Below, piece by piece: positions 3,619-58,305 of a DNA stretch of 64,000 nt. Position 1 is the stretch's first letter, and each line of letters begins with the position of its first letter. The stretch covers positions 62,001-126,000 of the forward strand of contig JASLPY010000003.1 of assembly GCA_030744755.1 (NCBI GenBank), written 5' to 3'. The notes below the pieces were generated by a model. The model was given only the letters and a program-made list of their open reading frames with translations. It did not search any database and had not been told where the DNA came from. The translations under genes and the position numbers were made by a program. The stretch comes from Kiritimatiellia bacterium (GTDB lineage: Bacteria > Verrucomicrobiota > Kiritimatiellia > UBA8416 > JADHWI01).

Positions 3619-3711
3619 GTAGGCACCTATCTCCGAGAGGTGCCCGCCGGTTCCGAATCAGCGGAACCGGTCACACGCCTTACGGGGTGCCTCTCGGAGA
3701 TAGGCACCTAC
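3619..3711. repeat. Family A paired-hairpin element (copy A1)
   Basis: GGCACCT-ATCTCCGAG-AGGTGCC (3622-3644), CCGGTTCC-GAATCAGC-GGAACCGG (3647-3670), GGTGCCT-CTCGGAGAT-AGGCACC (3686-3708). Confidence 0.85.
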
Positions 3712-3737
3712 TTGCTTCGCACAGTCCGAGGACAAGT

Positions 3738-4535
3738 CTACAGCCTGGGAAGAGTTAATCCCCCGTCCACCATCAATACCTGCCCGGTTGAATAAGGAAT
3801 ATCTCCCCGGGCCATCATCGCAACGGCTTTGCCAACGTCTTCCGGGAAACCCCATCTCTTCTGAATGCAGAGCCCTTCGGAAATCAATTTATCATATTTC
3901 TCCTGCACCGCAGCAGTCATATCGGTCTTGGTTACGCCTGGCTGGATCTCATAGACCGGTATATCGAATTCGCCCAACCGTGTTGCCCACAGCTTCGTGG
4001 CCATACTTATGCCGGCCTTAGAAATGCAGTACTCTCCCCGTGAGACAGACGCTACCGTGGCCGAGATTGACGATATGTTGACGATGCAACCTCTGAACTC
4101 TGGATCAGATTCCTTCTGCTCAACCATCCAGTTCGCAACGAGCTGGGTAAGGAAGAACGGTCCCTGGAGATTGGTCTTCATTACCCACTCGAAGCTTTCT
4201 TCGGTTGTTTCCAGAACGTCCGCACGAACCTTGGGAGCCACCCCGGCATTGTTCACAAGGATATTGATGCGCCCGAAATGATCCTTCGTCTCCGAAATCA
4301 TCCGCGCCCTGGAGTCCGCATCGCTTACGTCCCCCCTGGAGTAGAGCACGTCAGAACCAAGCCCTTGAAGCTCCTCGATCGTATTCTGTACGGAATCCCG
4401 TTCTCGCCTTCCACAGACAACAATATCGCAACCCTCTTTTGCCAGCTCCAGGGCTATACCCAGCCCGATTCCGCGGCTGCCTCCCGTAATCATGGCTACG
4501 GGCCTGACGGCACGGTCATCTGCATCATCGTTCAT
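3738..4535 (-). CDS. SDR family oxidoreductase (3-ketoacyl-ACP reductase/KduD-like)
   Basis: TGxxxGIG motif (ITGGSRGIGLGIA), NNAG, YCISKAG, GQVLMVDGGLTLPRL. Confidence 0.92.
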   Translation of the reverse strand: MNDDADDRAVRPVAMITGGSRGIGLGIALELAKEGCDIVVCGRRERDSVQNTIEELQGLGSDVLYSRGDVSDADSRARMISETKDHFGRINILVNNAGVAPKVRADVLETTEESFEWVMKTNLQGPFFLTQLVANWMVEQKESDPEFRGCIVNISSISATVASVSRGEYCISKAGISMATKLWATRLGEFDIPVYEIQPGVTKTDMTAAVQEKYDKLISEGLCIQKRWGFPEDVGKAVAMMARGDIPYSTGQVLMVDGGLTLPRL

Positions 4536-5698
4536 GCCTGATCTCCCAGCCCGGGAATGTCGACCCAGGCACGCTTTGCCCAGGATTCGAGACCCTTTTC
4601 AGCCAGTTGCACTCCCTTGGCACCCTCGACCAGTCCCCAATGGAACGGTGAATCACAGACCACGTGTTTCAGGAACAGTTCCCATTCTGTCTTGAACGCA
4701 TTCTGGTACTCCTGCCGCCCCTCAAACTCCGTCCATCCGTCATAGAAATCAATAGGATTCTCGACGTCCGGGTTCCAGACCGGGCACGGCGTCTCTTCGT
4801 AGGTTTGAACCCAGCATTTGCGAAGCCCGACTACCGCGCTTCCTTCCGTGCCGTCCACCAGCATAGTCAGCAAGTCATCACGCCTCACGCGCGTAACCCA
4901 CGAGGAATTGAAATGCGCGATAACATCGCCTGCAAGCTGGAACGAGGCATACGCCGCATCGTCCGCGGTGCATTCATATTCGTTGCCCTGCTCGTCCCAA
5001 CGCTTCTTGATGTGCGTCGCTCCTAGACAGGAAACCGCCTTTACCTCACCGAACAGGTTGTCCATCACGTAGCGCCAGTGGCAAAGCATGTCGTATATGA
5101 TGCCTCCACCGTCTTCCTTCCTGTAATTCCAGGACGGACGCTGGGCAGGAACTCTATCACCCTCAAATACCCAGTAACCGAACTCGCCCCTGACAGAAAG
5201 TATATCCCCAAGAAGACCGGAATCCTTGACTTCTTTGAACTTCATGAGTCCCGGCAACCACAGCTTGTCCTGGACAACTCCGTGCTTTACTCCGGCCTTC
5301 TCCGCAAGCTCGTACAACGCCATGGCATCAGACACATTCATTGCCGTTGGCTTCTCGCAGTAGACATGCTTGCCGGCTTCAATTGCCTTCGTCACCCACG
5401 GCACGCGGCGATCCGTTGTCTGGGCGTCGAAGTAAACACCGTACGAATCGTCCGCGATGAGCGAATCCACGTCGGTACTCCATTTCTCGACACCAGCCTG
5501 CTTGGCGATTTTCTGGAGTTTATCCGGGTTTCGCCCCGTAAGCACGGGATCGGGCATGATTACCTCGGTATCACTGATCTTAACGCCGCCCTGCTGCATA
5601 ATGGGAACCAGGGATCTCAGCAGATGCTGATTGGTCCCCATTCGCCCCGTGACACCATTCATTATAATGCCAACACGATGTGTCTTTGTCTCGCTCAC
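4532..5698 (-). CDS. Gfo/Idh/MocA family oxidoreductase
   Basis: VGIIMNGVTGRMGTNQHL...; GKHVYCEKPTAMNVSDAM (EKP motif). GTG start preceded by AAAGGAAG. Confidence 0.9.
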   Translation of the reverse strand: MSETKTHRVGIIMNGVTGRMGTNQHLLRSLVPIMQQGGVKISDTEVIMPDPVLTGRNPDKLQKIAKQAGVEKWSTDVDSLIADDSYGVYFDAQTTDRRVPWVTKAIEAGKHVYCEKPTAMNVSDAMALYELAEKAGVKHGVVQDKLWLPGLMKFKEVKDSGLLGDILSVRGEFGYWVFEGDRVPAQRPSWNYRKEDGGGIIYDMLCHWRYVMDNLFGEVKAVSCLGATHIKKRWDEQGNEYECTADDAAYASFQLAGDVIAHFNSSWVTRVRRDDLLTMLVDGTEGSAVVGLRKCWVQTYEETPCPVWNPDVENPIDFYDGWTEFEGRQEYQNAFKTEWELFLKHVVCDSPFHWGLVEGAKGVQLAEKGLESWAKRAWVDIPGLGDQA

Positions 5699-5743
5699 TG
5701 TTCTTCCTTTCGCAAAAAGCCCATCCAAAAAAGATCCTAGAGA

Positions 5744-5810
5744 GTCTGAATTCTAACGAATCCAGCTACCTCTCGCCGCCACATGTAGCTGAATCCGTGA
5801 GGATTCAGAC
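5744..5810. repeat. Family B paired-hairpin element (copy B1)
   Basis: GTCTGAATTCTAACGAATCCAGCTAC (5744-5769) ... GTAGCTGAATCCGTGAGGATTCAGAC (5785-5810). Confidence 0.85.
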
Positions 5811-5845
5811 AGATCCAGTTTTGGGCATAGTTCTCAGACATCAAC

Positions 5846-6289
5846 CTACGGAGCATCCGTACACTGTGGCTGAGCACCCTCCGGCAACGGGGGAACGTCA
5901 ATGCCCGCTTTCGGCAACGTACCTGCCAACTCCTGTTTCCAATGATCCACATCGCCTGCGGGACCGTAGACATAGATCATGATGAGCGGCCTGTCGCCTA
6001 TGTTTGTAAGCTGGTGGTAAACTCCAGGAGGTATGGATATGGCCTGGCCCCCGGACACGGTTTGCTTCTCTTCTCCCAGGCACATTTCGCCGGTCCCGTC
6101 TACTACGAAGTAGACCTCTTCCTGTTCCTGGTTGTGCCAGGGCACCTGTCCCCCTTTGGGATCAAGCGTCACGTATCCCATGCTGAATGCTGTGGCCTGT
6201 ACCGGCGCCGGTCCGCCCACCAGGTTCTGCGTCCTGCGTCTCGCCGGGTAAGTCCTGCCTTCGATCTGCTTCAAGTCTGAAACAATCAT
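5846..6289 (-). CDS. Cupin domain protein
   Basis: VPWHNQEQEEVYFVVDGTGEMCLGEEKQTVSGGQAISIPPGVYHQLTNIGDRPL cupin motifs 1 and 2. Confidence 0.9.
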   Translation of the reverse strand: MIVSDLKQIEGRTYPARRRTQNLVGGPAPVQATAFSMGYVTLDPKGGQVPWHNQEQEEVYFVVDGTGEMCLGEEKQTVSGGQAISIPPGVYHQLTNIGDRPLIMIYVYGPAGDVDHWKQELAGTLPKAGIDVPPLPEGAQPQCTDAP

Positions 6290-6303
6290 TCCGTGCTCTC
6301 CTT

Positions 6304-7674
6304 CTAAAAGAACTTCAACGTCTCTTTTCCTTCGATCTTTCGCTTCACATACAGAGCCGCTTCGCGGGCATGATAATCACCCCACATACTCGCCTCGCCA
6401 CAGGGCACTTTCCGGCTGTCAGGAACGAAATCCCATCCGTTCGGCCTGTGATAGACTGAATGAAGAATAAGCCCCTGGTGGCTGGAGTCAACAGCGAGGT
6501 AAGGCTCCGCGCACAAAGACCTCAGAACGGTAAGACCCGCCTGCCAATACTTGCCGCCCTCTTCATTCCTGCCCGTTGAGAGCAGGTAATCCCCAAGGCG
6601 GAGAAGTCCCTGCGCCCCGATTGCTGCGGCAGAGCTGTCAACGGGTTCATGGTCATTGAACGGATCTGCAGGTTTCTGCAGGTAGTCTCCCATAGACTGC
6701 AGCCCCGGAGCACCGGTATCCCAGTAGGGAATCCCGTCGGAGGCTGAGTTATCTATGTAGAAATCGCACGAAGCCATAGCCGCCTTTAGCATCATCGCTT
6801 CCACCTCGGCTCTGCCGCCGCAGACTGCCAGGTCCGAATCATCAAGGGACGCCACGAATTCGAGTTCCTCGGCAAAGCCACACATGATCCAGGCAAGCCC
6901 CCTTGTCCATGTTGAGAACGGAGAGTAGCCCTGCTGTGTGCTGGGACATCGATACGCCCCGTCGTTGAGATTGAATATGCTCTCGTGCACCACTCGCCCG
7001 CGCAGGTCGTAGTCGTCTCTTCCTTCGGCGTAGTAGACGTTATACTTGGCCGTTGCAGCAGCATGTTTCACAAGTCTGCCAAGCAGGGACTCTCTTACAT
7101 CGTTCTCCCCCATGAAAACGTGGCCCAACCGGTGCGAGACCGCCAATGCACGACATGACCTGATGGTGTCGGCGAAAAGTGAGTGCGGACCGTTGAATGA
7201 GTAGATATACCCTTCCTTGTCATTGAGAGCTGTCCAGCGCCGGGCCTGGACTGCGCCCGAACATTTGAGGGCGAACTCGTAGAAGTTGCGCTCCCATTCT
7301 CTCTCTTCAATGCGTCCCTCGTTCATGAGACGAAGCAGGTTGCCGTACGTGCTCACGTTATTGAAACCGTGATCATGAACCCCGAAATGTGTCACGTGCA
7401 CGCACATACGCTCGACAGTGTCGCGCCTTCCATTCTCCAGAAAGGATTCATCGCCGGTCGCATCAAACTGCAGAATTTTGGATCCGTACTCAAAGCCCTG
7501 AGTCCACTCGGTCCACCCCCTGGTTGAATACTTCCCGCGAATGGTAAAGACGGGTGAGCCCTGAGACTGATCGTATTCCTGTTCAATCAGACGGATCTTG
7601 CTTCCGGAAAGATCCCAAAGGGTATCGACCTGTTCTTTCAGGTCAGCGGGCTTGAGGTCATAGTCGATAATCAT
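6304..7674 (-). CDS. Glycoside hydrolase family 88 (unsaturated glucuronyl hydrolase-like)
   Basis: TWTRGLAWIMCGFAEELEF, DTGAPGLQSMGDYLQKPADPFNDHEPVDSSAAAIGAQGLLRLGDYL, YGNLLRLMNEG typical of GH88. Confidence 0.85.
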   Translation of the reverse strand: MIIDYDLKPADLKEQVDTLWDLSGSKIRLIEQEYDQSQGSPVFTIRGKYSTRGWTEWTQGFEYGSKILQFDATGDESFLENGRRDTVERMCVHVTHFGVHDHGFNNVSTYGNLLRLMNEGRIEEREWERNFYEFALKCSGAVQARRWTALNDKEGYIYSFNGPHSLFADTIRSCRALAVSHRLGHVFMGENDVRESLLGRLVKHAAATAKYNVYYAEGRDDYDLRGRVVHESIFNLNDGAYRCPSTQQGYSPFSTWTRGLAWIMCGFAEELEFVASLDDSDLAVCGGRAEVEAMMLKAAMASCDFYIDNSASDGIPYWDTGAPGLQSMGDYLQKPADPFNDHEPVDSSAAAIGAQGLLRLGDYLLSTGRNEEGGKYWQAGLTVLRSLCAEPYLAVDSSHQGLILHSVYHRPNGWDFVPDSRKVPCGEASMWGDYHAREAALYVKRKIEGKETLKFF

Positions 7675-7963
7675 GTGCAGATTCTCCTCCTTTAAGCACC
7701 ATGCTCCCCGTCACACTCGGAGATATCACATTCAAGTCACCCTTGTCGAACAATGAGGTGTTTCGATGGATATTTCTGAGCATCCGCCCGCCCAGAGGAC
7801 ATAGCAACACTTTGAAGTAAGAAGGAGAGCTGGCGTCCTCGCCTGCTCATTATCAGCCGAGACGGCCGATCTACTGGGAAACACCAAATCCGTGAGCCGA
7901 ACTGTCACCGCAACAGTGAAGAACTAGACAGGGGGATGGCAACAGACGTCAGTCGGAGGCACC

Positions 7964-24997: not shown

Positions 24998-25063
24998 GGT
25001 CGCCCGATCGGAGTCGGGCGCTACGTTCGATCCCCTGTAGCTCCCGATTCCAATCGGGAGATC
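24998..25063. repeat. Family E paired-hairpin element (copy E1)
   Basis: CGCCCGA-TCGGAG-TCGGGCG (25001-25020) and CTCCCGA-TTCCAA-TCGGGAG (25041-25060), joined by GCTAC...GTAGC. Confidence 0.8.
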
Positions 25064-29368: not shown

Positions 29369-29469
29369 CTGAATCCTCACCCTCCGTCGCCGAGGCTATG
29401 GAGGCCAAGCGGATTCAGCTACGGGAGGAAGTCCTGATCCAAACGTAGCTGGATTCGTTAGAATTCAGA
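29369..29469. repeat. Family B element (copy B2, composite)
   Basis: CTGAATCC ... CGGATTCAGCTAC ... GTAGCTGGATTCGTTAGAATTCAG (29445-29468), same 24-mer as B1/B3. Confidence 0.75.
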
Positions 29470-29473
29470 TCCC

Positions 29474-32400
29474 CTACTCCACAAGCCAAACCTGCCCACG
29501 AAAATAGATCGGGCCTGAGCCGCCTTGTGAATTCGAGTAAATGATCATTCTGTCCTCGCCGGACAGGTTCGTGTAGTCAGGCACCCCGGACCAGCCGCCT
29601 TCAAGATTAGTCGCATTCTCCAGCGAGTAGTACCTCTGGTAACTGCCGCCGTAGGCAGAGGCGTCAACGCCGAAGAACTCCACCAGCACATCACTGTTGG
29701 ATATTATTACATCCACCCAGAACAGGCTGTTGCTGTTCGTCGGATCAGTTCCTGCCGTGAACTCATCGTCGTTGTTAAGACCATCCTCGTCGGGATCGTT
29801 TGTTGCGATACCATCCGGGGCGTTCGTGCTTCCAAAGTGCTCTATCTCCCAGTCATCCAGCATGCCGTCGCCGTCAACGTCCAGGGGCGATTCCGCCAGC
29901 GGGTTGTTATCCTCGGAAGCGCCGTAGGTGGTGAACACTTCGTTCGACCCCTGGTTCATCCAACAGGTCCAGATCCAGTTGGACGATCTTGCCATGCCCT
30001 CAATACGGAACTCGTCAACGTACTCGGCAAAGCATTCGCCGCCCCAAAGTGAGAAGGTATTGGCGATATAGGCAATTGACCCGCTCACCTGGTTGATAGC
30101 AGATCCCACAAGGCGACCATCTACATAGAAATCCGTCCCGCCGCCTTCTCCCACTGCCGCAATATGGCGCCACTTTACATTGCCCGCCGGCAGGTCATAT
30201 CCCGAATCGGTGAAATCGAGGCCGATCTGCATACCGAGATCATCACTCGTCTTCTTCACTACCGCCGCACGGTCGCCCGAAGAGGTCCTGGCAAGGGTTC
30301 TTCCTTCGGAACTCGGATAGAGACCCTTGAACCATGTGCTTATCGTCCAGCTCCCGGCCAACGGAACATAAGGGTCCGCGACCTGGATGGTCGAGCCAAC
30401 CGAAGGAAGTCCCAGGGCCCTGCCTATCTGGCCGGGCTCCTCCCAGGTGTAGCTGCTTTTAAACGTGGTCTGCACGTCGTTGCTGGTGGAATCGTACACC
30501 GTGGTACTGCCCGTATCATCGGCCATGTGCTGCACAAGGCCGAAGCCGTTCGTCCAGACGGTTCCGTTGGTTGCATACCCCGGAGGTTCGGTAGCGCTGT
30601 CGTTGCCCCAGTAGAGCCATATCGAGGTGCCCTCTTCGGGCAAATCAGGCATGAGAACCCATACGCAGGAGGTGCCGCCTGGATCCCAGTTCTCGATCTC
30701 GTGGTACAGCGTATTGGTGCCCGTTATATCGGCAATGCGAAGACTTGCCCCGCCAAAGGCGGGGTCACCAACGTCCTCGTAATCGAAACCTTCCAGTCCC
30801 TCGTGCAGCTTCACCAGTACCGGAAAGTCTTCAACACCTTGAGCATCCGCGTACCCTGAAATAGACACCTGCATCCGGTAGTCCCAGTCACTGTACGTCG
30901 ATGAGTACGTAAACACGTTTATCGAGGCAGAAGTCGTAACTCCAAAATCGTCCTCCAGCACCGCAAAAAGCTGGTGATTGGAGGTGGGTGGGATATTGGA
31001 CTGGTTAAGGTCACAAGTATATGGACTGATGATGTCCTCATGCAACATTTCCGCCCCACTATAGAACCTGACGTGGTGCACTGAACCGGCCACATGCGAA
31101 AGGTCCACTGCCGCTGTCATGGTATCTGAGAACGGGGACAGGTACTTCGTGCCGTCCTCAGGACTGGTCAGCGCGATCCGTTCGGCCATTACAGCATGAA
31201 AAACGATTTCCACGGAGCTTTCGGTACCGCCATCGTCCACCAGGTCGGCCCTCAGGCTGTATGTCCCGGCCGTACTCACATGGGTGTGGTCCAGAAAGGT
31301 TTCATACGGATCGGTGGTGTCTACCGCGATACTGTTGGTCCCCAAGAAGAATTCTACTGAGTGGATCGAGCCACTTACCTGGTTGTCGTCTATTACGGTG
31401 GTTATGGTGTTCGAGAACGGGATGTACAAGGTGCTCCCGGCCGACGGGCTTGTAATGAATACTCTGGCCGCGGTAAGCGATGCGGGAAGGGCCACCCAAT
31501 TTGCCGGATCGTTTCCGCTTTGTCCGGCGTATGCTCTTTGAAGTGCCATGTCGTTGGTCTGGACGTTCTGCGGCCAGGGCGAGTGGGCCGAGTAGATTAC
31601 TTCGTCAACGATAACCCAGGACACGTTATCTCCCTCGTCGTCCGGCGCCTGTGGCCGCTCGAGTGCTATGCGCTCGCCATCGTTGGAAAGTCTGCCGTCA
31701 TACGGACCCATTATATAGAGAACCGCGTTGGTCAGATCGTATGCTTCCTTGAATGCATTCATCGCCGCTGTATTGGTGGGATTGAATGATACAAGTGTGA
31801 GGTAATCCTTCGATCCAATTGATGTATTGGACGGGAAGCTGTACTCCACTCCTCCATCGATCCGCCATGTTCCAGTCTCATTCCACAATTCGATCGGCGC
31901 GTCGGTTGGATTATAGAGCACGATGTACTCATCGTTGGTGTTGTCCTCGGGATTGGCGACCGTGGGGGCTGGATGATACATGAGCTGGTTTATCACGATA
32001 TGGCTGGAACCCAGCGCGTTGGTGGTCCTGCGGGTGGGTGACAGTGTGTACCAGTAATCATTGCCATCGATGTAACGCCCAAGCGTGGCGCCATTCTCCT
32101 GGCCTTTGAAGCTTATGCCGTCGGCCACGCGGTCTTCACTCGTTCCGGGAAGGTAGGACAGCAATACCTGTTCTCCGGCCTTGTCGAGCCCAAAGCCGTT
32201 GGTAATGGGACTGTGGAACCCGGTGACCTCATCAAACGCCTTCCAGCCTCCGGCTGCAATCGTGTTGGTTGCGGGTATGGCCCACTTCTTGAGATCCGAA
32301 GCGCTGTCACTGAGGTACCAGTTGGCCAGAGATACGCCGGTGGTTTTGGTGTTGTGGAGTTCCAGCCAGTCGTTGGAATCGTATTCTGGTTTCGCCGCGT

Positions 32401-37561: not shown

Positions 37562-37600
37562 ACGTAGCGCTCGACTCTGATCGGGTGATCCAGTTTTTTT
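37562..37600 (+). terminator. Candidate terminator formed by a decayed Family E hairpin plus T-tract (copy E2)
   Basis: CGCTCGA-CTCTGA-TCGGGTG (pairs with G.U wobbles on the + transcript), then ATCCAGTTTTTTT, 11 bp after abc-F stop. Matches E1 reverse complement except C-to-T changes. Confidence 0.6.
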
Positions 37601-38197: not shown

Positions 38198-38255
38198 GCT
38201 CCAGGACCCTTTTCGGACAACGTCTAGCCAGAAATGTGGCCGTTGGTGAGGGGAG

Positions 38256-38279
38256 CTGAATTCTAACGAATCCAGCTAC
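38256..38279. repeat. Family B single unit (copy B3)
   Basis: CTGAATTCTAACGAATCCAGCTAC, identical to the B1 left arm. Confidence 0.8.
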
Positions 38280-38317
38280 GGGAGAGAGGGCCTGCGCAAG
38301 TTCGTGAATCGACCCGT

Positions 38318-41195: not shown

Positions 41196-42461
41196 ATGAC
41201 GGGGAACGGTTTACCTTTCAGACAGCAGCAGCTCGAAGAGATTGCCGAGCGCTATCCAACACCATTTCACATCTACGATGAACGCGCGATTCGAGAGAAT
41301 GCCGTCCGTTTGAAAGAAGCATTTGCCTGGAACGAGGGGTTCAAAGAGTACTTCGCGGTCAAGGCTACTCCCAATCCGTACATCATGAAACTCCTCCAGG
41401 CGGAGGGTTTTGGTTCCGACTGCAGCTCGATGGCCGAGCTGCTTCTTTCGGAAACCGTGGGAATCACCGGCGAGAATATTATGTTCACCTCGAACGATAC
41501 GCCGGCTGAGGAATTCCAGAAAGCCTGCGCCCTTGGTGCCATCATCAACCTGGATGACATCACACATTTTGACTTTCTGGAGAAGAATGTCGGAATCCCG
41601 GAACTTGCATGTTTTCGCTACAACCCGGGGCCTTTGCGTGAAGGCAATACGATTATCGGGCATCCCGAGGAAGCAAAATACGGCTTCACGAAGAACCAGC
41701 TTGCGGAAGGATATGCGGCCGCCAAGGCACAGGGCATAAACAGATTCGGGATCCACACGATGGTGGCGTCAAACGAGCTCAACGCTCAGTACTTTATCGA
41801 TACTGCGGAAATGCTGTTCTCCCTGGTTGCCGAGTTCTCGCGAGATCCCGGTGTTCGGTTTGAATTCGTCAATATCGGCGGCGGGATCGGAATCCCGTAC
41901 AAACCGGAAGACAACGCCGTTGACTTGGATTTCGTGAGTAACGGTATTCATGAACTGTATTCCTCCATGATCGAGGCCAACGGGCTTGCACCATTGAGAA
42001 TTCTCATGGAATGCGGTAGAATGATCACCGGTCCGTATGGATTTCTTGTGTCCCGCGTGCGGCATATCAAGAATACCTACAAGAAGTTCGTGGGCCTTGA
42101 TGCCTGCATGGCCGACCTTATGAGGCCGGCCCTGTACGGTGCTTATCACCACATAACGGTCATGGGAAAAGAAGAGGAGCCCGCCGCCGGGATATACGAT
42201 GTGACGGGTTCGCTGTGCGAGAACAACGACAAGTTCGCCATAGATAGAGAGCTGCCCGAAATAGAGCCCGGTGATCTGCTCGTGATTCACGACGCGGGTG
42301 CACATGGTCATGCCATGGGGTTTAATTACAACGGGAAGCTTCGTTCCGCCGAGCTGCTTATGCGCCCGGATGGCGAGATTGTTGAGATCAGACGTGCGGA
42401 GACGACCCGGGATCTGTTTGCAACATTGGACCTGGACGGTTTGACGGCCTTCCAGGTCTGA
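41196..42461 (+). CDS. lysA: Diaminopimelate decarboxylase
   Basis: PLP decarboxylase: FAVKATPNPYIMKLLQAEGFGSDCSSMAEL; VNIGGGIGIPY; ECGRMITGPYGFLVSRV; DAGAHGHAMGFNYNG. Confidence 0.92.
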   Translation: MTGNGLPFRQQQLEEIAERYPTPFHIYDERAIRENAVRLKEAFAWNEGFKEYFAVKATPNPYIMKLLQAEGFGSDCSSMAELLLSETVGITGENIMFTSNDTPAEEFQKACALGAIINLDDITHFDFLEKNVGIPELACFRYNPGPLREGNTIIGHPEEAKYGFTKNQLAEGYAAAKAQGINRFGIHTMVASNELNAQYFIDTAEMLFSLVAEFSRDPGVRFEFVNIGGGIGIPYKPEDNAVDLDFVSNGIHELYSSMIEANGLAPLRILMECGRMITGPYGFLVSRVRHIKNTYKKFVGLDACMADLMRPALYGAYHHITVMGKEEEPAAGIYDVTGSLCENNDKFAIDRELPEIEPGDLLVIHDAGAHGHAMGFNYNGKLRSAELLMRPDGEIVEIRRAETTRDLFATLDLDGLTAFQV

Positions 42462-42541
42462 TGCGACGACAGTCTATCCGGTCGGTTCAGGTTCGTCCCG
42501 GGGTTGCGAATTGGCCCCGGAACCGGGAGAAGGCCGGAAGG

Positions 42542-44539
42542 ATGTTTAATGTGACGTACTATAAGCGACGCTTTGAGTCTGTCCAGAAACACAAACGGTT
42601 GTTCTTCGCCGCAATGATGGTGCTCGCCTCGTGCTGTTCCTGCTACGGTGTGGTTCTGAACGGGGCCGATGTTGCCCTGTACAGGGATGACGGGGATGGT
42701 GCATGGCCCGATGGAGTCACGGCCATTACGAACATGCTCAACACGTTGGGCTACACTCACGAGCTGATCCAAGCCGCGGATCTCAACTTCTCGGAACAGG
42801 ATTTCTCGGATCTTTATTCCATGATCCTGTTTCCCGGCGGGTTTGCCTACTACTACAACATTGATATCTCAAAGGCAGGCAAGCAGCGGATTCGCCGTTT
42901 CCTGGCGCAAGGCGGAGGATACATGGGTATCTGTGCCGGCTCGTTCTTTGCGTGCGACATCACGGTCTGGGAAGACGTAGCGTGGGATGACGCTGCCCCG
43001 GGCTATTACAACCTGGATATCTATGCTGGAACCGGGACCGGGCCGATAAACGAAATCGCCGAATGGGAGGGGGACGGGTACAACATGTGCTCATTTCTCT
43101 TCTCCACCGAGAATGAGATTCTCAAGGGCTACAAGGACGTTCCCTTCACTGAGGATATACTCTACTTCGGCGGGCCCTATTTCACTATCGATTCCAACTC
43201 AAACGTCGACGTCGAGATTCTGGCAACCTATGCTCATGCAGGCGTCCACGCAGGCAAGCCGGCCATCATTGCGTTCCGGTATGGTGACGGGAAGGTTGTG
43301 TTATTCGGTCCACATCCGGAGATCGAAGAGGATTCGGACCGCGATGGCGTTACCATCGACCGCGAAGACACGATGGCGGATAACGGCAGCGATTGGGGGC
43401 TTACCTCGAAAGTTCTCGAGTGGCTCATGCTGGAGGAGAAGTGCAAGATAAACGAAATTACCACGGAGGATGACAAGGTAACCCTTTCCTGGACGACGGC
43501 CCCGGGAACCCCTCACTCCGTACAGGTGTCGGATGATCTTTCTGGCTGGGTGGACCGTCTCAGCGTCTGCTCGAACAGTTACGGAGTGACGCAGGATGTC
43601 CCGATCTCCCTGGATGCGGCAGCCGGGTATTTCCGTGTTCAGACGGGCCGAGCGAAAATGGTGCCCATACCGGCAGGTGACTGTGTCATTGGAGATACTC
43701 TCTCCGAAGGGAGCCTGGATGAGCGGCCGGTTCACACCAATACAATCGATGGTTTCATGATGGACCGCTTCGAGGTATGCAACAAGAGCATGTGCGAAGT
43801 CATGCAATGGGCTTTTGACAACGGGCATGTCGACGTTTACGGATCTGTAGTTTCCAACATCATCGGTGATCCGCAAACCCTGATGGTTCTCCCCCCCCAG
43901 AATATCACTTTTGCCACTGATACTTTCAGTGTCGTCATCAATCGCGAATACCACCCCGCGGTTTCAGTGACATGGTACGGAGCCCAAGCGTACTGTACAT
44001 ACCGAAGCATGATGGAAGAACTTGAACCCTGTGTAGACCTTGGCGACTGGAGTTGCACATGGAGCAACTCCGGGTATCGACTTCCTACAGAGGCCGAATG
44101 GGAAGACGCGGCACGGGGCGGCATCGCAGGGCAAAGGCATACCTGGGGTAACGCCATCGACACGAGCACGGCAAACTACTACCTGAGCGGTGATCCTTTT
44201 CCACTTGCCGTCATCCCCACCAGCCCTGTCGGGTACTATGACGATCTCCAGACTCCAGCGGGGGTCGACATGGCGAATGGATACGGCCAGTATGATATGA
44301 CCGGCAACGTCTGGGAATGGTGCTGGGACTGGTATGACAGCGCATATTACGACGTGGCGCCGGCCGCCGATCCAAGGGGCCCGGCATCTGGCGACTACAA
44401 GGTGATGCGTGGCGGATCATGGTTCAACGCTTCGACACCTTTGCCCAACTACCTCAGGGCGGCCAGGCGGCTGGGTATATACGCCCCGTCATTCTCGGGT
44501 ACGGCTATCGGATTCCGTGCGGTTCGGCGAATGGACTGA
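42542..44539 (+). CDS. Secreted protein combining BPL_N (GATase1-like) and SUMF1/formylglycine-type domains
   Basis: SMILFPGGFAYYYNIDISKAGKQRIRRFLAQGGGYMGICAGSFFACD (BPL_N); FRLPTEAEWEDAARGG..., YDMTGNVWEWCWDWYD, MRGGSWFN...LRAARR (SUMF1). Confidence 0.85.
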   Translation: MFNVTYYKRRFESVQKHKRLFFAAMMVLASCCSCYGVVLNGADVALYRDDGDGAWPDGVTAITNMLNTLGYTHELIQAADLNFSEQDFSDLYSMILFPGGFAYYYNIDISKAGKQRIRRFLAQGGGYMGICAGSFFACDITVWEDVAWDDAAPGYYNLDIYAGTGTGPINEIAEWEGDGYNMCSFLFSTENEILKGYKDVPFTEDILYFGGPYFTIDSNSNVDVEILATYAHAGVHAGKPAIIAFRYGDGKVVLFGPHPEIEEDSDRDGVTIDREDTMADNGSDWGLTSKVLEWLMLEEKCKINEITTEDDKVTLSWTTAPGTPHSVQVSDDLSGWVDRLSVCSNSYGVTQDVPISLDAAAGYFRVQTGRAKMVPIPAGDCVIGDTLSEGSLDERPVHTNTIDGFMMDRFEVCNKSMCEVMQWAFDNGHVDVYGSVVSNIIGDPQTLMVLPPQNITFATDTFSVVINREYHPAVSVTWYGAQAYCTYRSMMEELEPCVDLGDWSCTWSNSGYRLPTEAEWEDAARGGIAGQRHTWGNAIDTSTANYYLSGDPFPLAVIPTSPVGYYDDLQTPAGVDMANGYGQYDMTGNVWEWCWDWYDSAYYDVAPAADPRGPASGDYKVMRGGSWFNASTPLPNYLRAARRLGIYAPSFSGTAIGFRAVRRMD

Positions 44540-44579: not shown

Positions 44580-44653
44580 GTACGTGCGCATCTCCGAGGC
44601 GCACGCTTCCAGGCACCGCGTTTCCGGGGGCACGTCTCGGAGATACGTGCCTA
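44580..44653. repeat. Family A paired-hairpin element (copy A2)
   Basis: CGTGCGC-ATCTCCGAG-GCGCACG (44583-44605) and GGCACGT-CTCGGAGAT-ACGTGCC (44629-44651). Confidence 0.85.
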
Positions 44654-44690
44654 CTTTCCAGCGAGAATTATCCGGTTGTGGCATTGCCAC

Positions 44691-45371
44691 CTACCTTCTC
44701 GCACGTTCCTTGCTGACCAGGTAGGCGGCAAGTCTTCTTGTCAGGGGGTCGCGATCCTGTTTGGCCAGGCGTCTGGCGGCCGTCCAGTAGTTACCGTCTG
44801 CCGTCCAGTACCCCCAGTAAATCCCCGCACGGCGGACGAGCGGATCTTTCGATGCCATGCAGTCCCGCGCAAGGAGACGGCAACCTGCCTGGGAGGGCAG
44901 GTGTTTTACTCCCGGCTGCCACAGGGCGCCCTTCTTGAGCGAGCGATCCAATGCGCGACTGCTACCAAACGCCGCTTTTAGCCAGACACGCTTTCTCTTG
45001 TCCGTTTCCAGTTCCCTTCGTATATACCAGCGATCGGTATCGTCCCCGTGAACCGTCATGTAAGCCCCGGCAACAAAGCACTCCTCAGCCTTTATCGCCC
45101 CGGCAAAACGCCTTCCGACATATGGAATTCCCGATCGCCCGAACTTGAAGAGCTTGACTCCTACGACGATTCCCCTGGCCCACTGCGCAGGGGACCAGGG
45201 ATGAGACCGGGTGAGTAGCACGAGCTCATCAAAGAGGGATATGAGTTCTGGATTGACCCTTCGCAATGCAGGGTCGTTCTGCGATTGAGCACTAATTGGA
45301 AAGGCAAGCGGACCGGCAAGCAACAGGGCGAGAAGCAACAGCAAATATATGTGGCATTTTCGCACTACCAA
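44691..45371 (-). CDS. Hypothetical secreted protein
   Basis: Signal peptide MVVRKCHIYLLLLLALLLAGPLAFPISAQS; no family recognised. Confidence 0.6.
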   Translation of the reverse strand: MVVRKCHIYLLLLLALLLAGPLAFPISAQSQNDPALRRVNPELISLFDELVLLTRSHPWSPAQWARGIVVGVKLFKFGRSGIPYVGRRFAGAIKAEECFVAGAYMTVHGDDTDRWYIRRELETDKRKRVWLKAAFGSSRALDRSLKKGALWQPGVKHLPSQAGCRLLARDCMASKDPLVRRAGIYWGYWTADGNYWTAARRLAKQDRDPLTRRLAAYLVSKERARR

Positions 45372-46263: not shown

Positions 46264-46325
46264 GGTCCACCTCGTAGCGGTGGACCTACTTCTTTTCCCG
46301 GTACGTCCACCGCTATGAGGTGGAC
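46264..46325. repeat. Family D paired-hairpin element
   Basis: GGTCCACC-TCGTAGC-GGTGGACC (46264-46286) and GTCCACC-GCTATGA-GGTGGAC (46305-46325); loops are near reverse complements. Confidence 0.82.
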
Positions 46326-47857: not shown

Positions 47858-49411
47858 GTGAAACCAAAACTCTTCGTAGTGTTTCTTGTAATAGTCCTTT
47901 TGCCGCTTTCGCTGCTCATCTGGACAGGGGTACGACTGGCCAGAGATGAGCAGGGAAGACTCGGCAGGCGAATTACAGAAGCTCTGGAGGGCCGCCTTTC
48001 CGAGATAAACGACGGCATCGCGAGGCTCGTTGCCGGGCACGAAACTTCGCTCCTTAAAGCAACGGATCCGGATTCCCTTGATGCGGAGTTCCTGCGCTCA
48101 GTCATGCGCCAGAATCGCCTGACCCGGCAGTTGTTCGTTATCGATTCCGAGCACAGGCTCATCTACCCGGAGGCGGCATCCACTAATTCCCTGACATCGG
48201 GCGAGCGGGATTTTCTGGAGAGAACCCGAAGTGTATGGGTAAGCGGCGAGACCTTTTACCATCAGCACGACACCGGAACGCGTTCGTCTAACAGGTACGG
48301 ATGGCATACGTGGTTCTGGGAACAGGGCCTCAGTTTCATTTTCTGGCAGCGGCTTGATTCCGGACAAGTGGTTGGCGCAGAAGTCGACCGTATCGCCGTG
48401 ATGGCAGATATTGTGGCCTCGCTACCATCGGGGACGCGCGGATCGAGACTGCTGGATGGACGAATCTCGCTGGTCGATACCTCCGGCAAGCCTCTTTACC
48501 AGTGGGGAGAGCACGAACCGGCAACCGGGGTGCCGCCGGCCGCCGAAGTCCCGTTGTGTCAGCCGTACTCGTCCTGGAGGTTACAGTACTTCGTGGCGCC
48601 GCATGTGCTGCAGGCCAACCTTGGAAGAAGCACTTCGTTTAACGTTCTTTCGGGGCTTGCGGTTATGGCCATTGCGTTGATAGGGCTTACCATCTACTTC
48701 TACAGAGAAAGCGCAAGGGAATCGAGGGAGGCGGTCCAGAGAGTTAGCTTCGTTAACCAGGTATCGCACGAACTAAAGACACCCCTGACGAATATCCGCA
48801 TGTATGCGGAACTTCTCGAGAAGCGGATTTCGGAGAAGGATGACAAGGCAAAACGCCAGGCCAGAATTGTTGCAGGTGAAAGCCAGCGCCTTTCGCGGCT
48901 GATCACCAATGTCCTGACGTTTGCGAAGGGACAGAGAAACGGCCTGTCGTACAAACCAGCACCCGGCATTCCCGACGCATGCGTTACATCGGTTCTTTCC
49001 GGTTTTCAGCAAGCGTTCAGAACCGGCCATATAGACGTGGGGTTTTCCCGGGGTGCCGGCAACGAGGTTCTTTTCGATGCAGACTTGCTGGAACAGGTCC
49101 TCGGAAACCTGTTCAGCAACGTGGAGAAATACGCGTCCGGTGGCGAGCTGCATGTCTGTTCAAGCCAGGATGGCGACAGTACAACCATCTCGGTTAAGGA
49201 TTCGGGCCCGGGGATTCCGAGGGGTCAGAGAAAGCGGATTTTTAAGCCATTCGAAAGGCTGAGCAATAAGGTGACAGACGGGGTTTCCGGAACGGGCATA
49301 GGTCTGAGCATAGCGAGGGACCTTGCACGCCTGCACGGAGGAGATCTTGCTCTAAAGGACTCGAACCGGGGAGCTCATTTCATACTGACGCTTCACACGC
49401 CGCTGGCGTGA
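47858..49411 (+). CDS. Sensor histidine kinase (GTG start)
   Basis: Two TM helices; VSHELKTPLTNIRMYAELLEKR, NLFSNVEKYASGGE, VKDSGPGIPRGQRKRIFKPF, GTGIGLSIARDLARLHGG. Confidence 0.93.
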   Translation: MKPKLFVVFLVIVLLPLSLLIWTGVRLARDEQGRLGRRITEALEGRLSEINDGIARLVAGHETSLLKATDPDSLDAEFLRSVMRQNRLTRQLFVIDSEHRLIYPEAASTNSLTSGERDFLERTRSVWVSGETFYHQHDTGTRSSNRYGWHTWFWEQGLSFIFWQRLDSGQVVGAEVDRIAVMADIVASLPSGTRGSRLLDGRISLVDTSGKPLYQWGEHEPATGVPPAAEVPLCQPYSSWRLQYFVAPHVLQANLGRSTSFNVLSGLAVMAIALIGLTIYFYRESARESREAVQRVSFVNQVSHELKTPLTNIRMYAELLEKRISEKDDKAKRQARIVAGESQRLSRLITNVLTFAKGQRNGLSYKPAPGIPDACVTSVLSGFQQAFRTGHIDVGFSRGAGNEVLFDADLLEQVLGNLFSNVEKYASGGELHVCSSQDGDSTTISVKDSGPGIPRGQRKRIFKPFERLSNKVTDGVSGTGIGLSIARDLARLHGGDLALKDSNRGAHFILTLHTPLA

Positions 49412-49426: not shown

Positions 49427-49485
49427 CATGCCTCTCGGAGATAGGCATGTACTGGAGAAGTAGGGACCTATCTCCGAGAGGTCCC
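49427..49485. repeat. Family A paired-hairpin element (copy A3)
   Basis: CATGCCT-CTCGGAGAT-AGGCATG (49427-49449) and GGGACCT-ATCTCCGAG-AGGTCCC (49463-49485). Confidence 0.88.
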
Positions 49486-49507
49486 TTTCCATGGAGGCGA
49501 ACAGGAT

Positions 49508-50008
49508 CTACCAGAGTGGAGCACCAATCACGCAATCTTTCGAGACCTGCCCGAACATCGCCTTGTCGGAGGGTACGTCCCGGTTGTCTCCGATAACGAA
49601 AATACCGTCCCTGGGTACTTTTGTTGGGCGCGCATCCCACTCGCACGGATGCTCCAGGTAAGGCTCATCAAGCAGCAGGTTGTTGATGTACACCCCGCCT
49701 TTTCGAATATCTACCACCTCGTTGGGCAAGCCGACAATACGCCGTATCAGCATTTGGCGGCGCCCCGGCACCTTGATGATAACGACCTGAAACCTGTGTA
49801 GATCCGAGAACCAGAACCGCGGACGCCAACAGAAATTGAGTTGCCCGGAGCGGTAGGCCGGATCCATCCCGTTTTCGTTGATGCGGATGGGAATGCATAT
49901 GCCGTAGAAGATCACGATGGCAAGGATGACGAAGATCCCCGTCTGAATCAATGCACCCCGATGAAACAGGGAGGCAAGGAAGCTCTTAGGTTTCTTCTCT
50001 GTGTCCAT
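49508..50008 (-). CDS. Signal peptidase I (S26) homologue, catalytic dyad apparently substituted
   Basis: TM helix; IRINENGMDPAYRSGQ in place of SMxPT; QMLIRRIVGLPNEVVDI in place of YxKRxxGLPGD; box E GDNRDVPSDKAMFGQVSKDCVIGAP. Confidence 0.85.
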   Translation of the reverse strand: MDTEKKPKSFLASLFHRGALIQTGIFVILAIVIFYGICIPIRINENGMDPAYRSGQLNFCWRPRFWFSDLHRFQVVIIKVPGRRQMLIRRIVGLPNEVVDIRKGGVYINNLLLDEPYLEHPCEWDARPTKVPRDGIFVIGDNRDVPSDKAMFGQVSKDCVIGAPLW

Positions 50009-50965: not shown

Positions 50966-50967
50966 CA

Positions 50968-52101: not shown

Positions 52102-52761
52102 ATGAATCACAAGCGGCAAAAACTCAGGTGGGCGGTTATTGGTGCGGTTGTGGCTATCGCGATTATTGGACCGTTCATCGTGTTCGGGGAACAAATAGAG
52201 GCATGGACGGAAACGTTTCTGGAATCGGCAAGGATGCGGCCATGGACAAGTGCCATGGTTCTTGGCGGTCTGCTCGGGAGCGACATTCTCTTTCCCGTTC
52301 CCTCCAGTATCGTCAGCACCGCTTGCGGCGTGGTGCACGGATTCATGGGCGGCGCGCTTGTTTCGATGCTGGGAATGACCTTCAGTTGTCTGGCCGGATA
52401 TGCAATTGCAAAATGGATGGGGCGTCCCCTGGTTTCCCGGTTTGTCGGAGACCGGGAACTGGACCGGCTTCACTGTATGGAGGAAAAGTATGGGGATTGG
52501 ATTATCGTTGTTGCGCGACCGGTTCCGGTACTGGCGGAGGCATCTGTTCTCTTCCTGGGGCTCGGCGCCATGTCATTTGCGCGTTTTGCGGTGTTGGCCA
52601 CGCTTTCGAACCTGGCGATTTCCATTGTGTACGCGGCCGCGGGAGCATGGGCGGCGGGAATTCACTCTTTCTTTCCGGCCCTCGCAGCATCTATCCTGTT
52701 GCCATGGGTATTGATGAGACTAAGTCCAAAACGGGGAACCGAAGATGAAGCCGATAATTGA
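52102..52761 (+). CDS. VTT/TVP38-TMEM64 (DedA-like) membrane protein
   Basis: GSDILFPVPSSIVSTACGVVHGFMGGALVSMLGMTFSCLAGYAIAKWMG...ARPVPVLAEASVLFLGLGAMSFARF. Confidence 0.85.
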   Translation: MNHKRQKLRWAVIGAVVAIAIIGPFIVFGEQIEAWTETFLESARMRPWTSAMVLGGLLGSDILFPVPSSIVSTACGVVHGFMGGALVSMLGMTFSCLAGYAIAKWMGRPLVSRFVGDRELDRLHCMEEKYGDWIIVVARPVPVLAEASVLFLGLGAMSFARFAVLATLSNLAISIVYAAAGAWAAGIHSFFPALAASILLPWVLMRLSPKRGTEDEADN

Positions 52762-53584: not shown

Positions 53585-53659
53585 CGAAGATGTGGGAGCG
53601 CGACCCATGGGGATGGCCGCCCACAAAACATGGAAAGACCGCTCTTTCCGAGAAAGACA

Positions 53660-54550: not shown

Positions 54551-54568
54551 AGTAGGAGAGCACTGTGT

Positions 54569-55885
54569 ATGAGTAGGAAGTCCAACAGGCGATTGCTTGT
54601 GGTGCAGGTTGCGGGACTGGGATGGGGACTGGTTCAGGGCCGTGAGGCGAGCACGATTCTGGGCCGGGACTGGGTCCCAATGGAAACCGTTTTCCCCGCC
54701 GTGACATGCACTGTGCAGGCATCCTTCCGCACGGGGGTTCCCGTCGGCCGGCACGGAATCGTGGCCAACGGATGGATGGACCGGGATTTGCGTCGCACAT
54801 TCTTCTGGGAGCAATCGGCCGCGCTCGTTGGCGGGCCGCGTATCTGGTCGGATTTCCGTGAGTCCGGTAACCGGGTTGCCATGCTGTTCTGGCAGCAGAG
54901 TCTGGGTGAGGCCGTTGACGCGGTCCTGTCCCCGGCGCCGATTCACAAACATCATGGCGGACTGATCGATGCCACGTATGCCCTGCCCGAAGGACTTTAT
55001 GATACCGTGGCCGAACGGGTGGGCGAAAAATTCAATCTCAGAAATTACTGGGGGCCCATGGCTTCCGTTCGCTCTTCCGGGTGGATTGCAAAAGCAACCG
55101 CAGCGCTCTTGCAAGATGAGGCGTTGGCGCCGGATCTTTGCCTGACCTATTTGCCGGGCCTCGACTACGATTTGCAACGCTTCGGTCCGGGACATCCACG
55201 GTCCGGCAATGCCATACAGTCGGTTGAGCAACAGTTGAAAGATCTCCTGGAAGCGGCCACCACGGCAGGCTACGACTGGCTGGTCTTCGGCGATTACGCC
55301 ATTGTCCGTGCCGAGAAACCTGTGTTTATCAATCGCAGTCTCCGCAACGCGGGATGGATGGCTACCAGGGAGATAGCCGGGAGATCGTATCCGGATATGC
55401 ATACCAGCCGCGCGGTGGCGGTAGTCGACCATGAAATCGCCCATATCTACCTTCGCAATCCTGGTGATGCCGGTGAGGCCGGTGCCTGCCTGCTGGATAC
55501 GGAAGGGGTAGAGTCCGTCCTGAACCCTGGCGAACAGAAAGACCGTGGCCTTATGCACCCGCGGGGCGGAGATTTAATTGCCGTTGCCGAAGACGGTGAT
55601 TGGTTTGCTTATGACTGGTGGACTGACCGAAGAGAGGCTCCTGACTATGCGGGCCACGTGGATATCCACAACAAGCCGGGCTTTGATCCACGGGAACTTT
55701 TCTGGGGCTGGCCGCCGGGAAGCGTCAGCCTGGATGCGTCCCGGGTCGGCGGGACACATGGCAGGACGGGGAAGGGTCGCGAAGTAGCTATGGCGGCATC
55801 ATATGATGTGGGTTCGCCACAAACGCTTCTTGACCTATCTAATGCTGTTGGGGAATCCTTAAGCGCTAGTTTTTCTGATCGGTGA
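54569..55885 (+). CDS. Type I phosphodiesterase/nucleotide pyrophosphatase-like protein (EboF-like)
   Basis: LLVVQVAGLGWGLVQG...METVFPAVTCTVQASFRTGVPVGRHGIVANGWMDRDL...TYLPGLDYDLQRFGP...VFGDYAIV. Confidence 0.78.
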   Translation: MSRKSNRRLLVVQVAGLGWGLVQGREASTILGRDWVPMETVFPAVTCTVQASFRTGVPVGRHGIVANGWMDRDLRRTFFWEQSAALVGGPRIWSDFRESGNRVAMLFWQQSLGEAVDAVLSPAPIHKHHGGLIDATYALPEGLYDTVAERVGEKFNLRNYWGPMASVRSSGWIAKATAALLQDEALAPDLCLTYLPGLDYDLQRFGPGHPRSGNAIQSVEQQLKDLLEAATTAGYDWLVFGDYAIVRAEKPVFINRSLRNAGWMATREIAGRSYPDMHTSRAVAVVDHEIAHIYLRNPGDAGEAGACLLDTEGVESVLNPGEQKDRGLMHPRGGDLIAVAEDGDWFAYDWWTDRREAPDYAGHVDIHNKPGFDPRELFWGWPPGSVSLDASRVGGTHGRTGKGREVAMAASYDVGSPQTLLDLSNAVGESLSASFSDR

Positions 55886-57057
55886 ATCAAGTGAGTGAAT
55901 ACATACAATCCTTTTCGGTGTCGTTCGAGTACCCCGTGTACTTCGGTCGCGACATGCTTGCGCCGGAAAACAAGTTACTCGCGGAAACCATGTGCCGGCG
56001 TGAGCCGGAGAGAAAACATCGTTTACAGGTGTTTGTCGATTCGGGAGTGATGGAAACCTCCCCTGATTTATCCGCCCGGATAACGGCGTATTTTGAAAGA
56101 CATTCCCAACAGCTGGATCTCGTAGACGAACCGGAACTTGTTCCCGGAGGCGAGGAAGCCAAGAACTCCCGCAAGGCGGCCGAGAAGGTTATGGAAAGCA
56201 TCGCCGATCATCATCTGTGCAGGCATAGTTACGTGGTGGCTATAGGGGGTGGCAGCGTCTTGGACATCGTGGGGCTGGCAGCATCGCTCGTGCATCGTGG
56301 CGTGCGCGTGGTACGAATGCCCACGACCGTACTCTCCCAAGGAGACAGTGGCGTAGGGGTTAAGACCGGCATTGATGCATACGGTGTTAAGAACTTTGCG
56401 GGCACTTTTGCGGCGCCCGACGCGGTGCTCGTGGATTTTGACTTCCTTCGAACGTTGCCATGGTCTTACTGGATCGGCGGCGTGACCGAAGCATTCAAGG
56501 TGGCCATGATCCGTGATGCAGATTTCTTTGAGTTTCTCTGTGAAAATGCGGCACGGTTGGGCAAGCGGGATGAGGCCATCATTGAACGCGTGGTCGAACG
56601 CTCCGCACTGCTGCATCTCGAACATATCCGCACTGCGGGAGATCCCTTTGAATTTGGAAAGGCTCGCCCGCTCGATTTTGGACATTGGAGCGCTCACCGG
56701 ATTGAAGTGCTTTCCGGATACGAAATTGGACACGGGCAAGCCGTTGGAATCGGAATTGCGTTGGATTCGTTCTACGCATGGAAGACCGGCCTGATTGGGA
56801 AGGACGAATTCGAGTCGGTTATTACCGCATTCGAGGGTTGCGGGCTCCCCGTCTGGGCCGGATTGCTGGACCGTCGTGCCGCGGATGGGAGAAGGGAGAT
56901 CCTTTGGGGCCTTGAGGAATTTCGCGAGCATTTGGGCGGCGAGCTCTCCGTGACACTCCCCGCCCCCATCGGCACGGGCACCGAGATCCATGTCATGGAC
57001 GAGACCATCATTGAGGAAGGGATTGATTTCCTCGGTGCGAGGGTCAGGGGACAGTAA
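55882..57057 (+). CDS. eboD: 3-dehydroquinate synthase-like protein (EboD)
   Basis: SVSFEYPVYFGRDMLAPENKLLAE...YVVAIGGGSVLDIVGLAASLVHRGVRVVRMPTTVLSQGDSGVGVKTGIDAYGVKNFAGTFAAPDAVLVDFDFLRTLP. Confidence 0.88.
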   Translation: MNQVSEYIQSFSVSFEYPVYFGRDMLAPENKLLAETMCRREPERKHRLQVFVDSGVMETSPDLSARITAYFERHSQQLDLVDEPELVPGGEEAKNSRKAAEKVMESIADHHLCRHSYVVAIGGGSVLDIVGLAASLVHRGVRVVRMPTTVLSQGDSGVGVKTGIDAYGVKNFAGTFAAPDAVLVDFDFLRTLPWSYWIGGVTEAFKVAMIRDADFFEFLCENAARLGKRDEAIIERVVERSALLHLEHIRTAGDPFEFGKARPLDFGHWSAHRIEVLSGYEIGHGQAVGIGIALDSFYAWKTGLIGKDEFESVITAFEGCGLPVWAGLLDRRAADGRREILWGLEEFREHLGGELSVTLPAPIGTGTEIHVMDETIIEEGIDFLGARVRGQ

Positions 57058-57058
57058 G

Positions 57059-58264
57059 ATGCGTATCGGACCTGATCGAAAACAGCACCTGACGTATTGC
57101 CTCAATGTGCATGCCGGTGAATCCTGGCAAGAGAACCTTGACGCCATCAGGAAGTATGCCTGTGATGTAAGGGATCAGGTGGGTGTAGAGGAACCCTTTG
57201 GCTTGGGCTTGCGCCTAAGTGCAGCCGCGGCGGAAGTGCTTGCGGCTCCTGCAGCAATCGCGGATTTCCGCGGCATTCTCGACGATCTCAATCTATATGT
57301 ATTCACGGTTAACGGGTTTCCTTACGGAACTTTCCACGCCGCCGCGGTTAAGGAGCAGGTATACGCCCCCGACTGGCGTCGACCCGAACGCGTAGCCTAC
57401 ACAAATCTGCTGGCACACATTCTTGCCGAGCTGCTACCCGACGGCGTTGACGGAAGCATCAGTACGGCCCCCGGCTCATACAAGGCCTGGGTACGGACGG
57501 ACGAGGACCGGCGGGAGATTGCGGAGAATCTCCTGGCTGTGAGCTGCCGACTGGCCCAATTGGCGGATGAGACTGGGCACGAGATTCACCTTGGCCTGGA
57601 GCCGGAACCCGATTGTCTGTTGGAGACGACGGACGAAGTCATTACCTTCCTGTCCGAAGACATGGCCCGGGCGATGAAACCCGGCGGGCCTGTTTCTGAA
57701 GATGTTGTGCGGCGTCATCTTGGCGTGTGTTTCGACGCGTGCCACATGGCCCTTCAATTCGAGAATCCAGCGGAGAGCGTTCGACGCCTCACCAATGCCG
57801 GCGTGCGTATCTCCAAGGTCCAGCTCAGTGCCGCCCTGCGCGCCCGTGGTGGCGGCAGTCTTAAGGAATCGCTCGGGGCGTTTGCGGATTCTGTATACCT
57901 TCACCAGACTCGCGTTAAAACGGAAGACGGCAACATTCAACGTTTCAGTGATCTTCCGCAAGCTCTCGCGGAGACAGATCTTGTGCTGGACCGGGAAAGC
58001 GAATGGCGGGTGCATTGCCATGTTCCGCTATACTGGCAGGGCGAGGCCGGAATCACTTCGACATCGCACGCAATGGACGACTCGTTTTTCGCCGCCGTTG
58101 AAGAATCCGGATGTACCCATCTCGAAATGGAAACCTACACATTCGACGTTCTTCCCCTCCCCCTGCGCCAGAGAGGGATCGTGGCGAGTCTGGTTGATGA
58201 GTACGGATGGTTTTCTGCGCGGGTTGGGTGTAAGGGATTGCGGGAGGGGACCTCTCGGAGATAG
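57059..58264 (+). CDS. eboE: TIM-barrel metabolite traffic protein (EboE-like)
   Basis: KQHLTYCLNVHAGESWQENLDAIRKYACDVRDQVGVEEPFGLGLRLS...LYVFTVNGFPYGTFH...CFDACHMALQFE. Last codons and stop lie in repeat A4. Confidence 0.88.
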   Translation: MRIGPDRKQHLTYCLNVHAGESWQENLDAIRKYACDVRDQVGVEEPFGLGLRLSAAAAEVLAAPAAIADFRGILDDLNLYVFTVNGFPYGTFHAAAVKEQVYAPDWRRPERVAYTNLLAHILAELLPDGVDGSISTAPGSYKAWVRTDEDRREIAENLLAVSCRLAQLADETGHEIHLGLEPEPDCLLETTDEVITFLSEDMARAMKPGGPVSEDVVRRHLGVCFDACHMALQFENPAESVRRLTNAGVRISKVQLSAALRARGGGSLKESLGAFADSVYLHQTRVKTEDGNIQRFSDLPQALAETDLVLDRESEWRVHCHVPLYWQGEAGITSTSHAMDDSFFAAVEESGCTHLEMETYTFDVLPLPLRQRGIVASLVDEYGWFSARVGCKGLREGTSRR

Positions 58265-58305
58265 GTCCCTACTTCTCCAGTACATGCCTATCTCCGAGAG
58301 GCGTG
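58247..58305. repeat. Family A paired-hairpin element (copy A4; reverse complement of A3)
   Basis: GGGACCT-CTCGGAGAT-AGGTCCC (58247-58269) and CATGCCT-ATCTCCGAG-AGGCGTG (58283-58305). Confidence 0.88.

Follow-up and report, generated by a model that had tools for sequence, protein, structure and literature searches.

The window analysed here, a stretch of 64,000 nt from an uncultured Kiritimatiellia bacterium (GenBank assembly GCA_030744755.1, contig JASLPY010000003.1, positions 62,001 to 126,000), raises the question of what kind of element would keep one hairpin loop unchanged while its stem varies in a matched way. A preliminary description had reported eight such hairpins in four inverted pairs, here called family A, and had proposed them as an undescribed element class. 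All eight hairpins were found at the positions given and the list of stems was right: seven of the eight are fully complementary, and the eighth (58280-58305) has one T.G wobble, CATGCCT/AGGCGTG (Table 1). The claim of a new class did not hold, since the layout is that of GTAG-tagged REPs and REPINs, and a RAYT gene accompanied by same-loop hairpins occurs in a relative. REP elements and REPINs are spread by RAYT (TnpAREP) nucleases, and it is highly probable that the paired hairpins are a RAYT-spread REP/REPIN family whose stems are free to change in a matched way.

Table 1. Family A elements and hairpins in the window
Feature	Position	Strand	Description	Setting
Element 1	3619-3711	.	head-to-head dimer, GTA tags outside; stems GGCACCT and GGTGCCT; 41-nt spacer containing its own hairpin	between minus-strand genes, ORFs 2144-3616 and 3738-4535
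Hairpin	3619-3644	+	GTA-GGCACCT-ATCTCCGAG-AGGTGCC	Element 1
Hairpin	3686-3711	-	GTA-GGTGCCT-ATCTCCGAG-AGGCACC	Element 1
Element 2	44580-44654	.	head-to-head dimer, tags outside; stems CGTGCGC and GGCACGT	convergent genes either side, ORFs 42461-44539 (+) and 44691-45371 (-)
Hairpin	44580-44605	+	GTA-CGTGCGC-ATCTCCGAG-GCGCACG	Element 2
Hairpin	44629-44654	-	GTA-GGCACGT-ATCTCCGAG-ACGTGCC	Element 2
Element 3	49427-49485	.	tail-to-tail dimer, tags inside, 7-nt spacer; stems CATGCCT and GGGACCT	convergent genes either side, ORFs 47858-49411 (+) and 49508-50008 (-)
Hairpin	49427-49452	-	GTA-CATGCCT-ATCTCCGAG-AGGCATG	Element 3
Hairpin	49460-49485	+	GTA-GGGACCT-ATCTCCGAG-AGGTCCC	Element 3
Element 4	58247-58305	.	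tail-to-tail dimer, tags inside; stems GGGACCT and CATGCCT	convergent genes either side
Hairpin	58247-58272	-	GTA-GGGACCT-ATCTCCGAG-AGGTCCC	Element 4
Hairpin	58280-58305	+	GTA-CATGCCT-ATCTCCGAG-AGGCGTG, one T.G wobble	Element 4

Folded as DNA, the tagged strand of the unit consists of GTA followed by a 7-bp stem, an A.G mismatch, two further base pairs (TC/GA) and a TCC triloop, and it folds better than the opposite strand (-7.6 versus -5.7 kcal/mol). The invariant GTA immediately 5′ of each stem (8/8 window hairpins) is the feature that points to REPs and RAYTs, and the preliminary description had overlooked it. Two architectures are present, with the tags outside (Elements 1 and 2) or inside (Elements 3 and 4); each whole dimer of Elements 1 and 4 folds into one long hairpin, and Element 4 supplies the stop codon of the upstream ORF 56990-58264, whose end falls inside it. 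With 0.76 occurrences expected in the window, the 9-mer CTCGGAGAT has nine, a count reached in 0/100 shuffles; its ninth match, at 7716-7724, is not a hairpin.

GTAG-hairpins of other sequence also lie in the window, where several REP-like families thus coexist. A second GTAG family, approximately GTAG-CTGAATYC-GTTA-GRATTCAG, has members at 5738-5769, 29444-29475 and 38249-38280 that are up to 97% alike. A tail-to-tail dimer with a short spacer at 46265-46325, GTAG/GTAC-GTCCACC-GCTAYGA-GGTGGAC, has the architecture seen in family A. Further GTAG-hairpins, of the CGCCCGACTC/GATCGGGCG type, GTAGCTCCCGATTCCAATCGGGAG and GTAGCCGCCCCGGATATCCGGGGTGGC, were found at 25000-25026, 25037-25060, 37562-37588 and 60020-60046.

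That family A would extend beyond four loci was borne out by a search of the window's own assembly (G000; 6.28 Mb, 530 contigs, 89.7% complete), where the pattern GTA-N7-ATCTCCGAG gave 125 matches and a reversed-pattern control gave 0. The loop is fixed by construction in this exact-loop search, and a few partners with one loop change exist; a covariance model found at least 133 copies. GTA itself is likewise fixed by the search pattern. GTAG REPs are defined by a tetranucleotide GT(A/G)G beside the palindrome; in family A the fourth tag base is G in 75/125 copies and C or T in 50/125. The stem, at 7 bp and with 32 distinct arm pairs in this assembly, is a palindrome of the length (about 6-9 bp) and variable composition by which GTAG REPs are recognized.

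Most copies (108/125) pair up in inverted orientation, giving 54 dimers, of which 37 are tail-to-tail and 17 head-to-head. The commonest dimer, with 27 exact cases, joins a GGGACCT stem to a CATGCCT stem through a 7-nt spacer; about 68 bp of it are conserved, and in most copies the flanks are unrelated. A second form of about 131 bp has its tags outside and a conserved, partly palindromic spacer. Among exact-loop copies, a small sample, singles are not clearly more decayed than paired hairpins (mean 6.71 paired positions, n = 17, versus 6.81, n = 108). The dimers might instead be pieces of a larger element with no relation to RAYT, either the termini of a classical MITE or insertion sequence or what is left of one. 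The spacer of the 131-bp form would allow this, and so would some 12 tail-to-tail copies whose flanks keep a decaying homology, over up to about 20-45 bp to one side and 80 bp to the other. We regard this as very improbable: beyond about 68 bp most copies have nothing in common, one hairpin unit serves two dimer architectures, and tag and hairpin agree with the RAYT-flanking repeats of the same taxonomic order.

Two MAGs from a different family of the same order (G016 and G020) are also rich in the ATCTCCGAG loop, on other stems, and in these genomes the fourth tag base is A, T or C in many copies. Single matches in other genomes of the class mostly form no hairpin, nor does the lone genome_contigs match outside the two MAGs (L175, Coatesbacteria). 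In one genome (G070), 33 matches, most of them repeating tandemly every 60 bp and bearing a GTAGTCCACG arm, were left out of the family count. Its contigs C51, C73, C75, C100, C122 and C144 carry GTAGTCCACGATCTCCGAG arrays with steps of about 60 bp, in which the same 9-mer sits in a tandem repeat.

Covariation of the stems, claimed from the window, proved strong genome-wide without any filtering. When 3′ arms were reassigned among copies, Watson-Crick pairing across the 125 copies fell from 97.0% of stem positions to a mean of 63.6% (maximum 70.7%). The corresponding values are 88.8% versus 57.0% for the 32 distinct hairpins of this assembly, 92.5% versus 73.3% for 67 copies tested in G016 and 98.1% versus 70.6% for 37 copies in G020. 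These arm-shuffle tests are descriptive and are not R-scape p-values, as related sequences beat shuffles more readily than independent ones. In an alignment of 45 hand-picked rows (A1), leaning to paired ones, both sides change in 7/7 pairs. Without pairing it would be difficult to obtain what the three genomes show, namely three or four Watson-Crick types at each pair, and the matched changes support the structure-level constraint that had been suggested. The accompanying premise that classical REP/BIME elements conserve the stem was mistaken: most GTAG-REP families contain sub-families whose stems differ by the exchange of one complementary set of residues for another (Di Nocera, De Gregorio and Rocco 2013, PMC3733652), and preserved palindromes have been taken to suggest selection for complementary mutations (Nunvar et al. 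2010, PMC2817692).

Matched arms could also arise with no loop-reading protein, if template switching at replication forks (quasi-palindrome correction) copied one arm onto the other. The stems are indeed nearly all exactly complementary, with few intermediates (112/125 copies fully paired), and such correction can act alongside a RAYT mechanism. As the sole cause it is most improbable, for it accounts neither for the invariant GTA outside the hairpin and the invariant asymmetric 9-nt loop, nor for the high copy number and the dimers, nor for RAYT genes flanked by hairpins with the same loop.

Placement was assessed with a simple codon-usage gene caller written for this analysis: about 88% of the DNA is coding, and 122/124 assessed hairpins fall outside the predicted genes, so that the family combines high copy number with an intergenic location, as expected of a GTAG REP. 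For the 115 copies with both neighbours called, 40 lie between convergent, 63 between co-directional and 12 between divergent genes. This agrees with the published REP pattern, which is intergenic and mostly downstream of genes (PMC3733652). Copies mostly downstream of genes, like the strong covariation, would also suit an element selected as a transcribed structure, such as a 3′-UTR stabiliser, an attenuator or a protein-binding hairpin, and according to the general view of REPs they are transcribed, possibly acting as RNA hairpins (PMC3733652). We nevertheless find an RNA-level element very improbable. Nearly every locus holds both orientations as inverted pairs; G.T pairs are rare (21/609 cells over 87 distinct hairpins); a U-run terminator layout is not apparent in the loci inspected; Rfam gives 0 matches above gathering score in the window; and the dispersal of near-identical dimers with unrelated flanks would be left unexplained. 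An RNA role could be a secondary host use of the hairpins.

A search for RAYT genes, advised in the preliminary description, succeeded in a relative and not around the family's own copies. The relative, G003, comes from a different family of the order; on its contig C69 an ORF of 164 aa lies between inverted GTAG-GGCTCG-ATCTCCGAG-CGAGCC hairpins, which bear the full GTAG tag; three further hairpins at this locus carry the loop CTCTCCGAG. The ORF scores 82 bits against NF047646 (REP-associated tyrosine transposase; NCBIfam cut-off 80) and matches a PDB 4er8 chain annotated TnpArep (E 2.5e-6); against Pfam Y1_Tnp alone it falls below the cut-off. Homologues occur in 213/346 genomes of the class, the best one in the window's assembly having only 32% identity. 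Y1/RAYT-like genes number about 10 in G000, three in G016 and four in G020 (assemblies 90, 88 and 74% complete), and at the loci examined no family hairpin lies within about 1.5 kb of them. The cognate RAYT gene may lie in the missing 10% of G000, have been lost, or act in trans; REPtrons are sometimes absent from published REP genomes too.

Elsewhere in the class, two or more GTA-hairpins stand at about 20/30 RAYT loci examined, which makes a fixed loop with variable, matched stems usual for RAYT-flanking repeats there. At L289 the stems GGACGC, GGACAG and GGCGCG all carry the ACCGCCGGG loop, and differing stems share one loop within the single RAYT locus L285 as well; at L288, L293 and L299 the hairpins have TC-TCC-GA tops as in family A, with a C-G pair replacing the A.G mismatch. 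GTAG-6bp-ACCGCYGGG-6bp hairpins with several stems per loop, observed at L285, L289, L312 and other class RAYT loci, follow the same fixed-loop rule with another loop.

Within the window's own genome, a RAYT-like gene on contig C166 (L281, 1019-1956) stands amid three tail-to-tail dimers of a different GTA-tagged family, GTAT-GGCCAGTT / GTAC-GTCCAGTT, with 3-nt loops and asymmetric stems; it is a REPtron, and ties the dimer architecture to RAYTs in this genome. On contig C55 (L264, 1300-2310), another RAYT-like gene has tandem copies of a repeat of about 105 bp with inverted ends on its flanks, resembling the TIR-flanked tyrosine transposases of Di Nocera 2013 (PMC3733652). This tandem array and the spacer of Element 1 share the 10-nt CACGCCTTAC, which we judged coincidental because the other spacers do not have it.

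On the reading of family A as a RAYT-spread REP/REPIN family, the inverted dimer would be the unit that moves, a non-autonomous element, and its present mobiliser in the window's genome is probably a RAYT of the G003 type. The most likely substrate of this enzyme (TnpAREP, an HUH/Y1 single-strand endonuclease) is the folded GTA strand, bound through its tag and mismatch-plus-loop top, with the lower stem serving just as a helix; cutting and joining nearby would then copy the dimer into new intergenic sites. If the stem is read for shape, matched changes would be tolerated and stem sub-families would build up, with tag and loop staying fixed. That the RAYT reads the loop is suggested by analogy with group 3 TnpAREP, for which SELEX work showed an exclusive reading of certain loop bases (Corneloup et al. 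2021, PMC8266576). A more specific scheme, which we put forward only tentatively and think rather unlikely, has recognition in this REP lineage shifted from GTAG to GTA plus the mismatch-and-triloop top, with the whole 7-bp stem and, as part of it, what was once the fourth tag base now able to drift, so that one trans-acting enzyme without flanking repeats of its own serves many stem sub-families and the fixed two-stem dimers.

The kind of element is already known, as GTAG-REP families, stem sub-families, dimers and loop-reading RAYTs are all published. The sequence family itself, genome-wide with about 125 copies, is probably new; new too are a fourth tag base that is free to differ from G and is stem-paired and covarying, and the fixed asymmetric tail-to-tail dimers. 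A well-populated REP family is thereby added to an uncultured lineage, and with it a natural test of how RAYTs read their targets: hundreds of sequences in which tag and loop are fixed and the stem is varied in a matched way, to which the class RAYT loci with several stems on one loop can be added. Loop versus stem recognition, so far addressed by SELEX in three model REPtrons, becomes testable with existing sequences. For readers of genomes, an invariant loop with covarying stems alone proves neither a new element class nor an RNA.

Among known systems, IS200/IS605 elements (IS608, ISDra2) carry imperfect hairpins in subterminal position, whose unpaired bases a Y1 HUH transposase reads, and a tetranucleotide guide 5′ of the hairpin. 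Family A differs in being short non-coding dimers with no tnpA/tnpB between the hairpins and no known cleavage site. The G003 locus is itself a REPtron, its flanking hairpins having the identical ATCTCCGAG loop, whereas the RAYT loci examined in the three copy-rich genomes, unlike published REPtrons (PMC2817692; PMC8266576), are not family-flanked. With the REPINs of Pseudomonas fluorescens SBW25 (Bertels and Rainey 2011, PMC3116915) family A shares inverted REP doublets with a hairpin-forming spacer as the likely mobile unit (108/125 paired). In SBW25 the REPIN sequences are conserved and compensatory changes fall in the spacer (PMC3116915); in family A they fall in the REP stem, and singlets show no evident decay.

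A match to a named repeat was absent by sequence, both in Rfam and in paper text, where matches were irrelevant as judged by titles, and present by layout, in the GTAG-REP super-family (24 families, PMC3733652). The likeness covers the 5′ GTA(G) tag, the 6-9-bp stem, the intergenic, mostly downstream position, the head-to-head and tail-to-tail dimers and the complementary stem sub-families; loops that are large and partly structured also occur in some of the 24 families. Family A is set apart from these by their description, not by their consensus sequences (PMC3733652): its top is an invariant 9-nt A-TC-TCC-GA-G; they vary at tag positions 2 and 3, whereas family A often has C, A or T as its fourth tag base, paired within the stem; and family A is dominated by tail-to-tail dimers with fixed, different stems. 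The need for GTAG is strict in E. coli and relaxed in S. maltophilia and Marinomonas (PMC2817692; PMC8266576). Because its free, stem-pairing fourth tag base departs from the published definition, family A is best described as a variant of the GTAG-REP super-family, not as a plain member.
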